Source: a virus. Taken from it: a DNA stretch of 21,006 nt. A model generated the notes under the pieces. That model made no database searches and was not told the origin of the DNA. It worked only from the letters and a program-made list of their open reading frames with translations. Shown in pieces: positions 2,708-5,948 of the stretch (position 1 is its first letter; each line of letters begins with the position of its first letter). Both the position numbers and the translations under genes were made by a program. Location: IMG/VR virus record IMGVR_UViG_3300037502_001624, positions 1-21,006 of that record. One strand, given 5' to 3'.

Positions 2708-3194
2708 TTATTAATTGTTTTACTTTTTTAATAACCCGAAGAACTTCATTGATTGATATTTTCGTTTGTCGGTGGATTGCTCTTGCACTATTTCCATTTT
2801 GCCACATGGTAAAAATCTCACGGTCGTACCAATATAATTGGGCAACCACCTTTTCAATGGAGTTATATTTTTTCTCCCGTAGAAGAATGATTTCGGTAGT
2901 TTCGATATCTGCCTCGATATCTTGAACTTCCTCATAATCCCAGAGTCGGTTTTTGTCAAATGGTGAACACTTGCCGTGTATGGCATTGTAGAGTAAACGC
3001 ACCACATAAAAACGAATATACCCACCTTCATATATTTCCTCGATTTGTTTGCTTGGTTTTTCTAATAGTTTCAAAAAAGCATATTGATATAGTTCATCGC
3101 CGACATCTTTGTTAGGGGCTATCTTATAACAAGCCTCTTTAAACCAAGATTCTTTGGTAAGATGTTCTATAATCTCATCTCTTTTGATACACAA
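2688..3194 (-). CDS. Sigma-70-like RNA polymerase factor
   Basis: This is a 168-residue protein with the layout of an ECF-type sigma factor. DVGDELYQYAFLKLLEKP (about residues 31-48) matches region 2.1/2.2, where most sigma factors read DAxDLxQExFxxL. YIRFYVVRLLYNAIHGKCSPF (59-79) matches region 2.3/2.4. A C-terminal helix-turn-helix, ARAIHRQTKISINEVLRVIK, matches region 4.2. Similar sigma-like proteins occur in many Bacteroidota phages and may redirect host polymerase to late genes. The start is odd: no in-frame ATG exists near the N-terminus, a TGA stop lies six codons upstream, and the only common start is a TTG at 3194 lying inside a promoter-like box. The true start may be TTG or an unusual codon slightly downstream. 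Confidence 0.72.
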   Translation of the reverse strand: MCIKRDEIIEHLTKESWFKEACYKIAPNKDVGDELYQYAFLKLLEKPSKQIEEIYEGGYIRFYVVRLLYNAIHGKCSPFDKNRLWDYEEVQDIEADIETTEIILLREKKYNSIEKVVAQLYWYDREIFTMWQNGNSARAIHRQTKISINEVLRVIKKVKQLINDEYNS

Positions 3195-3248: not shown

Positions 3249-3749
3249 TTATAATACTCCACTTCTGACTCTTGATATAGAATGATTATTGACGAATAAA
3301 GTCCCTTCGTTATTGTTAAATCCCAATATCTCAAGGATGGCGGTGTAGTTTCTTCGGAGGATTTTGTCATATTCTAAATAATATTCGATTTGTTTACAGG
3401 CATTTAATACGGTGCTATGGTCTTTTACAAGTATTCTACCTATCTGCGTTGTCTTATATCCGTAGTGAAAGCGCATGATGTAGCAGAATAAATGTCGTGG
3501 GATGGTAAAATCCGCTTTCCGGGATGTTCCCAATACTTCTGATGGGGATGTTTCATACACTTGACATATTTCTCGTAATACCAATTCCCAATCTTCGCAG
3601 TTTTTAACATACTTAATTTTAGGATTTAGCAACTCGTGTCTAAGTTGTTTTAGTTTTTCTTCGTACTGGCGTTGCATTGTTTCGTGTTTCAATAGCAATG
3701 ACTGATAACGCTTTTTTAAATCGTGGTGTTGTTGGTATATTGTTTCCAT
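3249..3749 (-). CDS. Stand-alone DnaA domain IV protein with coiled coil
   Basis: This is a 166-residue protein. Residues 9-42 form a charged coiled coil. Residues 52-135 match DnaA domain IV, the helix-turn-helix that binds DnaA boxes: IPRHLFCYIMRFHYGYKTTQ matches the basic loop and first HTH helix region, and DHSTVLNACKQIE (110-122) is the DnaA signature, where the host protein reads DHTTVxxAxxxI. The ATPase domain III is absent, so it cannot melt an origin like full DnaA. It may tether to a phage origin, compete with host DnaA, or act as a regulator. It overlaps the methyltransferase gene by 34 nt and ends the helicase operon, which supports a replication role. I saw no clear TTATNCACA box in the window, though I did not scan exhaustively. 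Confidence 0.88.
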   Translation of the reverse strand: METIYQQHHDLKKRYQSLLLKHETMQRQYEEKLKQLRHELLNPKIKYVKNCEDWELVLREICQVYETSPSEVLGTSRKADFTIPRHLFCYIMRFHYGYKTTQIGRILVKDHSTVLNACKQIEYYLEYDKILRRNYTAILEILGFNNNEGTLFVNNHSISRVRSGVL

Positions 3750-4729
3750 AGTTCTATTTTTTTAAATAATTCATAAGCCACCTGTGGTACTATTGCATTA
3801 CCGTAGCCCTTTATTGATTCTGCCCTCCACTTTGAAAAGGTAATTCCGTCCAATTTGGTGGGAAGCCCATCATCTCCGCCACAAATCGGGGATTGAGTTG
3901 GGAATTTTTCCCATTGGTATTTAATGTTGCCCAACTCCCTAAATCGTTCGTTTCTGTTCTTCCCCGTTTTTTCAATGACTCCGCACTTCCGCTCCCATTG
4001 GCATCGCTGACTGTTGGTGTCGGTAACATTCCCATTGCTGCCATTTGCTTTAATGGATTCTGCAAATTCACTCCCTTTTCTTTGTGTCGTTTCTGTGCTT
4101 CCTTGAATGTTTCTTCCTTTCTCGGTGTATTCCAATCGTATGCCGTTGGTGTCGGTAGCATTCCTACTTTTTTGTAACCCTTTACTACATCTGTCAAACT
4201 CGCCCCGTATCCATCCGATGTCCTTCCCGGTTCTTGCGCTCTTGGAGTAGGCAACAAACCAACATCTATCTCTTCGGTGCGGTGCGTTTTTGGAACAAGC
4301 TGGAATAATAAACGGTTGAACTTCGTACCCTTCAGTTTCCAAGTCAAGGCACACCTGCTCGAATACCAATCCCCCATCAATATTAGTGATACCAAAGACA
4401 TTTTCTGCAATGACAAATTGGGGTTTAATCTCTTGTATTGCTCTAAGCATTTCGTGCCACAAGTAGCGTTCATCATCTGTGCCTTTTCTTTTTCCTGCCA
4501 TTGAGAATGGTTGGCATGGGAATCCTCCGGTGAGAATATCAATTGTGTTTGCATATTTTTTAAAATCTGTTTTTGTTATATCTGTGTGTGAATCTGCATT
4601 AGGGAAATGGTACTCTAATACCTTGCGTGGAAATTCCATCCATTCGCAATGAAATACATTCTCCCAACCCATCCATTCGGCTGCAAGGTCAAATCCTCCA
4701 ATACCGCTAAATAAACTACCGTGCCTCAT
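3716..4729 (-). CDS. dcm: DNA cytosine-5 methyltransferase
   Basis: This 337-residue enzyme methylates C5 of cytosine in a specific DNA site, probably to protect phage DNA from restriction. Motif I SLFSGIGGFDLA (5-16), motif IV GGFPCQPFS with catalytic Cys72 (68-76), motif VI AENVFG (108-113), motif VIII APHRRDRCWF (149-158) and motif X GNAIVPQVA (310-318) are present in order. Between VIII and X lies the target-recognition region, rich in short repeats such as ATDTNGIRL and VTDTNSQRC and ending near PICGGDDGLPTKLDG. No restriction enzyme gene is near, so it is a solitary methylase. The gene overlaps dnaB by 14 nt. Its recognition region is also open and protein-like in the +1 frame (see the entry at 3811-4377). 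Confidence 0.96.
   Translation of the reverse strand: MRHGSLFSGIGGFDLAAEWMGWENVFHCEWMEFPRKVLEYHFPNADSHTDITKTDFKKYANTIDILTGGFPCQPFSMAGKRKGTDDERYLWHEMLRAIQEIKPQFVIAENVFGITNIDGGLVFEQVCLDLETEGYEVQPFIIPACSKNAPHRRDRCWFVAYSKSARTGKDIGWIRGEFDRCSKGLQKSRNATDTNGIRLEYTEKGRNIQGSTETTQRKGSEFAESIKANGSNGNVTDTNSQRCQWERKCGVIEKTGKNRNERFRELGNIKYQWEKFPTQSPICGGDDGLPTKLDGITFSKWRAESIKGYGNAIVPQVAYELFKKIELWKQYTNNTTI
3811..4377 (-). CDS. Putative overlapping gene or alternate recognition region inside dcm (+1 frame)
   Basis: A second minus-strand frame, shifted +1 to dcm, is open for 247 codons (4554-3811). From an internal ATG at 4377 it would give 188 residues. The stretch has ordered, protein-like motifs: WYSSRCALTWKLKGTKFNRL, then LPTP three times, two of them as MLPTPTxxD (LPTPRAQ, LPTPTAYDWN, LPTPTVSDAN), then QLNPRFVAEMMGFPPNWTEL before the stop. 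To my knowledge LPTP...D repeats and LNPxFVxxMMGFPxxWT are genuine in-frame parts of the recognition region of C5 methyltransferases in actinobacterial and other phages. Here that version is encoded out of frame while the dcm frame carries the other known version. It lacks motif X, so alone it is not an enzyme. It could be a real overlapping gene, a frameshift product, or a conserved shadow. Start uncertain. Confidence 0.4.
   Translation of the reverse strand: MGDWYSSRCALTWKLKGTKFNRLLFQLVPKTHRTEEIDVGLLPTPRAQEPGRTSDGYGASLTDVVKGYKKVGMLPTPTAYDWNTPRKEETFKEAQKRHKEKGVNLQNPLKQMAAMGMLPTPTVSDANGSGSAESLKKRGRTETNDLGSWATLNTNGKNSQLNPRFVAEMMGFPPNWTELPFQSGGQNQ
4013..4164 (-). repeat. Direct repeat pair in dcm recognition region
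   Basis: Two 20-bp copies at 4013-4032 and 4145-4164 (plus strand gttggtgtcggtaRcattcc) differ at one base. They encode the repeated ATDTNG/VTDTNS segments in the dcm frame and the repeated MLPTPT segments in the +1 frame. Such short repeats inside a recognition region could promote deletion or expansion and so change specificity. Confidence 0.75.
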
Positions 4730-5948
4730 TGTATAATGTTCTTGATGGTGTAAATGTTGTTTTAATCATTCCAACTTCTCCGTGTCTATTCTTTGCGATA
4801 ATTAGTTCTGCCTCTTCGATTTGGATATCTGCCCTATCGTAGTAGTTAGGACGGAATGGGAATAAGATAATATCAGCGTCTTGTTCAATACTTCCGCTCT
4901 CTCGTATGTCGGATAGTAATGGTCGCTTATCTGCTCTCTCTTCGCATTTACGCGATAACTGAGCCAATGCGATAACAGTTATCTCTAATTCCTTTGCTAA
5001 TACTTTTAGATTGCGTGATATGTCGCTTATCTCTTGTTCTCTATTTTGCTTATTGCCCTTAATCAATTGCAGATAGTCAATAACCAATATATTTAATCCG
5101 TGCTTTGCCTTATGGATTTTAACCTTTGATTTTATGGTTTGAATGTCAACTATTGCCTCATCGTCAATGTGAAACATTACTTCGTCTGTTACAATCTTAT
5201 TTGCAAGGTAGGAAATTTCCGATTGATTCAAATTACCGCTCCTTAATTTGTATTGTGGTATCTCTGCAAGTAATGACATATAGCGTTTGGCAATCTGCTC
5301 CTTGCTCATTTCCAAAGATAGGAATAAACACTTTGCTCCAAGTTCAGCAGCATTGCGAACAAATGAAAGTGCAATTGCAGTTTTACCTGAACCGGGACGA
5401 CCTGCAATAATTACCATGTCAGATTTATTCCAACCACCTATAACCGAATCTAACTTGTGCCATCCGGTAGGCAATCCGCTTAAACTCTGTCCGCGTTCTA
5501 TTGCGTAAGTTATTTGGTCGAATACTTGACCAGTAACTTTCTGCATTTGTACGCTTTCTTTTGCGTGTACTATTTTACTTTCTTCTACATACCGCTCTAA
5601 ATCGTTTGTAATCTCGTTTAAATCGCGTTTTAAGTCAAGGTTGGATAGTTTGTCTACCAACTCCTTTTTCATTGCCTTATATTGCAATTCTTTTATGTTG
5701 TGTTCAATCTCTCCGTTACCCATTACTTTGTTCATTAATAGGCTAACATCGTAGGCATATTCTTTACCAATGTGATTAACGATTTCGTATATACCAAATT
5801 GAGTATTTGACAAGTACAATTCTTGCATTGCCATTACAACTTTTTGATGCAATGGTTCTGTAAACCAATTTGATTTTAATCTGGGTAGATAAACAAGGTT
5901 CTTATCCCAAAATAAAAGGTTTGATATTATGTGCGATTCTAAGTTCAT
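4716..5948 (-). CDS. dnaB: Replicative DNA helicase, DnaB family
   Basis: This 410-residue hexameric helicase unwinds DNA at the phage fork using ATP. Residues 1-100 form the helical DnaB N-terminal domain. The RecA-like motor follows: Walker A GRPGSGKTA (183-191), SLEMSKEQIAKR (211-222), Walker B VIDYLQL (289-295), sensor ALAQLSR (327-333), and DIRESGSIEQDAD (347-359), the most conserved DnaB block. IIAKNRHG (383-390) holds the arginine-finger region. Length is slightly below the 450-470 residues of cellular DnaB, mostly from a shorter N-terminal domain. It starts 1 nt after the stop of the DUF6291-type gene, a likely loader or initiator partner. No primase domain is visible here. Confidence 0.97.
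   Translation of the reverse strand: MNLESHIISNLLFWDKNLVYLPRLKSNWFTEPLHQKVVMAMQELYLSNTQFGIYEIVNHIGKEYAYDVSLLMNKVMGNGEIEHNIKELQYKAMKKELVDKLSNLDLKRDLNEITNDLERYVEESKIVHAKESVQMQKVTGQVFDQITYAIERGQSLSGLPTGWHKLDSVIGGWNKSDMVIIAGRPGSGKTAIALSFVRNAAELGAKCLFLSLEMSKEQIAKRYMSLLAEIPQYKLRSGNLNQSEISYLANKIVTDEVMFHIDDEAIVDIQTIKSKVKIHKAKHGLNILVIDYLQLIKGNKQNREQEISDISRNLKVLAKELEITVIALAQLSRKCEERADKRPLLSDIRESGSIEQDADIILFPFRPNYYDRADIQIEEAELIIAKNRHGEVGMIKTTFTPSRTLYNEAR

Follow-up and report, generated by a model that had tools for sequence, protein, structure and literature searches.

A gene nested in the +1 frame of a phage C5-cytosine methyltransferase gene, the probable second subunit of a split enzyme with a cassette-built middle region

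Organization of the locus and its two proteins

The window, a virus contig of 21,006 bases, carries on one strand a C5-cytosine methyltransferase gene (alpha) and, wholly within it in the +1 frame, a second ORF of 247 codons (beta). The alpha gene has as neighbours a DnaB-like helicase gene (4716-5948) and a gene (3249-3749) whose product carries a C-terminal DnaA (helix-turn-helix) domain. The latter and the gene of a ThyX-type thymidylate synthase (1836-2447) follow alpha downstream on its own strand. The long open +1 frame had been picked out in the original prediction and is indeed there, with an ATG start, inside the 337-residue methyltransferase ORF. The three occurrences of LPTP (beta residues 101, 133 and 177), two of them as MLPTPTxxD, and QLNPRFVAEMMGFPPNWTEL near the end of beta, followed by PFQSGGQNQ, were also correctly described, and the other long same-strand shadow frame in the window, put at about 100 codons, measures 103 residues (2720-3031).

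Table 1. Features of the nested methyltransferase locus, in window coordinates.
Feature	Position	Strand	Basis
Alpha, probable C5-cytosine methyltransferase large subunit, 337 aa, motifs I-VIII and X	3716..4729	minus	ORF and domain matches
Beta, probable nested +1-frame subunit, 247 aa, ATG start	3811..4554	minus	ORF, conserved and constrained
Beta start codon ATG, 175 nt past alpha ATG	4552..4554	minus	spacing kept in relatives
Alpha catalytic part, residues 1-165: motif I FSGIGG, IV GGFPCQPFS, VI ENV, VIII HRRDR	4235..4729	minus	invariant columns
Alpha spacer, residues 166-285, predicted disordered	3875..4234	minus	low identity, low pLDDT, stop-free
Alpha motif X (YGNAIVPQVAYELFKKI) and helix	3755..3823	minus	invariant GNA.V; helix model
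Beta cassette 1, LPTPRAQEP..., residues 101-132	4159..4254	minus	cluster 21
Beta cassette 2, LPTPTAYDW..., residues 133-176	4027..4158	minus	cluster 1
Beta cassette 3, LPTPTVSDA..., residues 177-219	3898..4026	minus	cluster 4
Beta motif IX, residues 216-238, KNSQLNPRFVAEMMGFPPNWTEL	3841..3909	minus	hhalign profile comparison
20-nt repeat encoding the LPTP joint, 3 copies	4241..4260, 4145-4164, 4013-4032	minus	repeat spacing 96 and 132 nt

Alpha matched the C5-cytosine methyltransferase family PF00145 (E 1.2e-47) and phrog_363 (1.5e-69), and contains the SAM-binding and catalytic motifs I-VIII of these enzymes, including PCQ and ENV. The best fold match of its AF2 model was M.HhaI (E 1.8e-16), with pLDDT mostly above 90 in the catalytic part; the sequence match to M.HhaI covers residues 3-162 only. 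High pLDDT was likewise obtained for a helix at residues 299-335 that includes motif X, of which GNA.V is invariant. The intervening residues 181-277, with pLDDT below 50, are predicted to be disordered, and the spacer as a whole displays an amino acid identity of 0.29 in alpha's frame. Motif IX is absent from alpha and lies instead in the +1 frame; alpha thus lacks the one-chain arrangement in which motif IX and the target-recognition region (TRD) stand between motifs VIII and X.

Beta matched phrog_1008, a phage family labelled DNA methyltransferase (6.6e-33), with no match in Pfam or NCBIfam. Comparison of the beta profile with 30 one-chain C5-methyltransferases by hhalign placed its motif IX segment on RPFTVREYARIQTFPDDW (P 0.0028), a short match of 23 columns. 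In the window group, motif IX in beta and motif X in alpha are 18.7 codons apart (a fractional value because the frames are offset), as against 16-21 codons in most canonical enzymes in which both motifs were found and about 9 to 38 codons in other groups of nested pairs. Modelled alone with AF2, beta gave a pLDDT of 62.5 and a pTM of 0.29, which would not be surprising for half a domain; the model had no useful match among PDB folds and the beta profile no match among PDB sequences.

Selection on two frames and spread of the nested pair

The beta interval stayed open in none of 5000 synonymous shuffles of alpha, for which 8.4 stops were expected. The longest +1 run was 79 in the median shuffle and 222 at most, and in 30 ordinary C5-methyltransferase genes, none of which matched the beta profile, it averaged 62 with a maximum of 120 codons. 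Across 82 relatives, the +2 frame of the same interval contained about 20 stops. In pairs under 85% identity, identity at the fourfold sites of alpha was 0.33-0.39 before the beta ATG, 0.41-0.90 inside beta, and 0.46 then 0.25 after it, some bins holding few sites; in pairs less than 50% identical, it was 0.32 upstream of beta versus 0.76 over motif IX. What was found among relatives is hence the opposite of the frequent +1 stops and normal synonymous change that had been named as refuting the original prediction.

The codon positions at which change is tolerated shift along the gene. Between the window and its closest relative, L010, substitutions at alpha positions 1, 2 and 3 numbered 6, 6 and 31 upstream and 33, 10 and 3 in the TRD between motifs VIII and X, which is the pattern of beta. 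These counts were made on nucleotide alignments as a control for the circularity of aligning on beta, and protein alignments gave the same shift. In the TRD, third codon positions rank among the best conserved of alpha, and first positions are the least conserved. Furthermore, the alpha frame between motifs VIII and X contained no stops, compared with 4.8 expected per locus if beta alone mattered, in a set that had been pre-filtered for long alphas (3 of 85 dropped); alpha must therefore be read through to motif X. Taken together, the substitution patterns indicate that the frame under selection is first that of alpha, then that of beta, alpha being no more than held open there, and finally that of alpha again; over the initial stretch of the overlap, both are selected. 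By this evidence, beta is a selected protein-coding gene and is presumably translated.

Beta lay in the +1 frame of alpha in all 166 loci matching both, many of which had been located through beta. A less biased search, seeded with two divergent alphas (one from a phage of Paenibacillus, the other from a phage of E. coli; best 80 loci per seed, partly redundant), gave an overlapping +1 beta in 160 of 160 viral loci. The same offset was observed in 83 of 85 bacterial or plasmid loci from Bacteroidota, Bacillota, Pseudomonadota and others; these loci are related, and none of the counts represents independent events. In the two bacterial loci that depart from the usual overlap (L241 and L251), alpha looks broken or frame-shifted and the end of beta is kept. 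LPTPT.. and ATDTNG.. had been taken for two alternative known versions of one region, which proved mistaken, as in all the relatives examined both come from one stretch of DNA, read in its two frames.

Among the best matches listed, a single query returned more than 500 viral stretches, and two others returned 76 and 196 phage records, including epsilon15 and coliphages K1G and K1ind2. In hosts the pair is sporadic, occurring in 3 of 396 Bacteroidota genomes (one of the three being the reference genome used to draw the group), and similar DNA was found in 66 of 5426 complete E. coli genomes. No free-standing beta without alpha was seen among the loci examined, and none of the loci read carried a one-frame fusion of alpha and beta. 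In Edwardsiella phage eiAU (L424, 919-2340), the beta frame extends over 474 codons and reaches into the following gene, which is likewise annotated as a DNA methyltransferase. This is a possible fusion of beta with another domain; as a fusion of alpha with beta it was rejected, the long frame entering the next gene and not alpha.

Certain Bacteroides relatives (L171, L214 and L228; L212, L213, L217, L218 and L222) have in-frame TGA codons in alpha, with beta open. Several of these codons stand at conserved Trp positions (LAAE*MGW, DFRG*RGR, FSR*RQAS), and there are no internal TAA or TAG codons. The first TGA is common to two groups; between their alpha start regions, 31 of 62 third positions differ, but only 9 first and 5 second positions. 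Since the differences between groups fall mostly at third positions, the TGA-bearing alpha still seems to be under selection, and its TGA codons may serve as Trp codons or be read through; the 60 kb around L214 yielded no tRNA gene.

The second frame is usually overlooked in gene annotation. For both E. coli prophages that were checked (chromosomes L465 and L466), RefSeq lists alpha alone, as DNA cytosine methyltransferase, and the +1 beta is present and unannotated. Coliphage K1ind2 has beta annotated as a 'putative Mte8-like protein' (L426, 902-1699) nested in a 'C-specific methylase', and in coliphage K1G both alpha and beta are annotated as DNA methyltransferase. A P. larvae phage genome paper places two DNA-cytosine methyltransferases in adjacent table rows, and overlapping genes were penalised in its annotation scoring. 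No paper describing the nested pair in phages was found among the open-licence papers searched.

Exchange of LPTP cassettes in beta

The middle of beta is a tandem array of 1-5 units of about 39 residues, each starting at LPTP. Among 90 betas near that of the window, 85 different architectures were counted, and 40 of 42 unit clusters occur beside differing neighbours. In the window group, the E. coli-phage group and the Paenibacillus-type group alike, identity drops abruptly at the LPTP joint, from about 0.95 to about 0.1; the clusters were defined on units, which accounts for part of this contrast but not for the drop to chance level beside the joint. These alignments indicate that cassettes have been shuffled at LPTP joints in three separate groups.

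The three cassettes of the window illustrate the pattern. The first is 94-97% identical to the first cassettes of L013 and L011, the second belongs to a cluster of 15 members found in 13 neighbour contexts, and the third shares 98% amino acid identity with L010 and L012 at a wobble identity of 56-63%. The window thus has its first unit as in L011 and L013, and its second and third as in L010. For the third cassette of the window and L012, 98% of the protein but only 56% of wobble positions are identical, and the shared units are hence old. The spacings between copies of the 20-nt repeat are both multiples of 3, so an exchange at the repeats keeps both frames. An array of this kind suggests a combinatorial, perhaps multiple, specificity.

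Readings of the nested gene and comparison with known systems

In 75 of 85 non-redundant relatives the beta start lies at the same distance from the alpha ATG as in the window, and in 81 of 85 it is an ATG. Moreover, a five-base Shine-Dalgarno core precedes a beta-frame ATG or GTG in 51 of 73 loci of the E. coli-phage type, whereas among control start codons its frequency is 0.2-0.4%. In the window itself, no Shine-Dalgarno motif stands before the beta start. The conserved start and the Shine-Dalgarno sites make a separate start of beta the most likely route of translation.

Programmed ribosomal frameshifting from alpha, which would yield a fusion of motifs I-VIII with the TRD and motif IX beside full-length alpha, is improbable by comparison. 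It would accord with beta always being in the +1 frame, with beta joining in the motif order of a one-chain enzyme and with the switch of selected frame near motif VIII. However, the N-terminal 100 residues of beta, useless to such a fusion, are under raised synonymous constraint from the beta ATG onward, and the fusion itself would be without motif X. That the +1 frame has no motif X had been rightly noted, the motif being in alpha. A frameshifted isoform, one of three options originally offered, is accordingly disfavoured, since beta begins at a conserved start codon separate from that of alpha, with a ribosome-binding site of its own in Gram-negative phages, and alpha stays open to motif X. 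The other two options fared better. An overlapping gene, presumably expressed, is strongly supported by selection, start site and conservation; an ancient frame switch fits as the origin of the locus, which retains the motif order of a one-chain enzyme along the DNA (I-VIII / TRD-IX / X) and its IX-X spacing, with two changes of frame. The overlap itself had been correctly recognised, and motif IX of beta and the cassette array of its middle had been overlooked.

It is very improbable that beta is a real protein with another job outside the methyltransferase, for example in anti-restriction or regulation. The silence of Pfam, NCBIfam and the PDB with regard to beta would suit such a role, but alpha has neither motif IX nor a conserved TRD, beta gives motif IX at the right distance from motif X of alpha, and the two always occur together. 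A passive shadow, in which codon bias or the ATDTNG repeats hold the +1 frame open with no translation, is scarcely credible: repeats in the alpha spacer do lengthen any shadow frame, and the spacer has to stay open in any case, but the synonymous shuffles, the inverted conservation of codon positions in the TRD and the wobble positions of cassette 3 led us to reject it as far as selection can tell.

We consider it highly probable that the locus encodes one C5-cytosine DNA methyltransferase split over two polypeptides in overlapping frames, alpha with motifs I-VIII and X and beta with motif IX and the likely TRD. The frame under selection between motifs VIII and X points to beta as the likely target-recognition region. 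Alpha would contribute the SAM-binding and catalytic motifs I-VIII, a disordered spacer, and motif X packing back on the catalytic domain. Beta, started from its own ATG inside alpha, would give motif IX and most likely the TRD, and would bind alpha, completing the small domain responsible for reading the target and for helping to flip out the cytosine. The two chains would form an active enzyme as those of M.EcoHK31I do, a type in which methylation needs both polypeptides. The complex would then methylate the phage DNA, probably against host restriction. The cassettes would set the target or targets, and their exchange between phages, in units open in two frames, could change or add target sequences. 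More tentatively, the nested pairs may constitute a system widespread among phages: a split C5-methyltransferase would take its specificity from a subunit encoded out of frame by a nested gene of exchangeable LPTP cassettes, each with its own DNA site, and phages would come to methylate several targets by swapping blocks readable in two frames.

If the split-enzyme reading is true, methylation motifs assigned from alpha expressed alone would fail or mislead, and tests applied to alpha alone would take the constraint of beta for positive selection. The cassette array also offers a direct way to test how the specificity of C5-methyltransferases is built and multiplied. In a large phage family, the nested arrangement, probably that of a split C5-methyltransferase, is here the rule.

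Nested split C5-methyltransferases have a small literature, from the 1990s. M.EcoHK31I and M.EaeI, with the target YGGCCR, are two-polypeptide C5-methyltransferases. In M.EcoHK31I the small-subunit gene lies inside the large-subunit gene in another frame; the enzyme is not known to have a cassette array. The Bacillus phages SPR and phi3T have multispecific one-chain C5-methyltransferases with tandem recognition units of about 40 residues. The likeness of beta to the latter is in idea only, as tandem units of about 40 residues within a phage enzyme; theirs are in one chain and one frame, and the comparison is by description only. With M.HhaI, M.HaeIII and Dcm the locus shares the fold of the catalytic domain, the motif order and the IX-X spacing, whereas in those enzymes the catalytic part, motif IX and the TRD share one frame and the +1 frame is closed. 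In PHROGs, alpha belongs to phrog_363 and beta to phrog_1008 in all four phages tested for both, but the two families are each called just 'DNA methyltransferase' and their nested relation is not given.

M.AquI is a C5-methyltransferase of two polypeptides (PMC3404938). Its split falls in the variable region and leaves motifs IX and X together on the small subunit, whereas here alpha keeps motif X. M.EcoHK31I has motifs I-VIII and X in its large polypeptide and motif IX in the small one, with the TRD predicted in the large subunit (PMC3404938). The present locus resembles it in having an alpha with motifs I-VIII and X and a separate, smaller ORF with motif IX, and in the nesting of the beta gene in the alpha gene in another frame. 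It differs in that selection here places the TRD in beta, the alpha spacer being predicted disordered, in that beta is a variable array of 1-5 cassettes, and in being a phage gene with no visible partner endonuclease. A split C5-methyltransferase of the M.EcoHK31I type, likened to it by motif distribution and layout as described and not by sequence, is the best reading of the locus.
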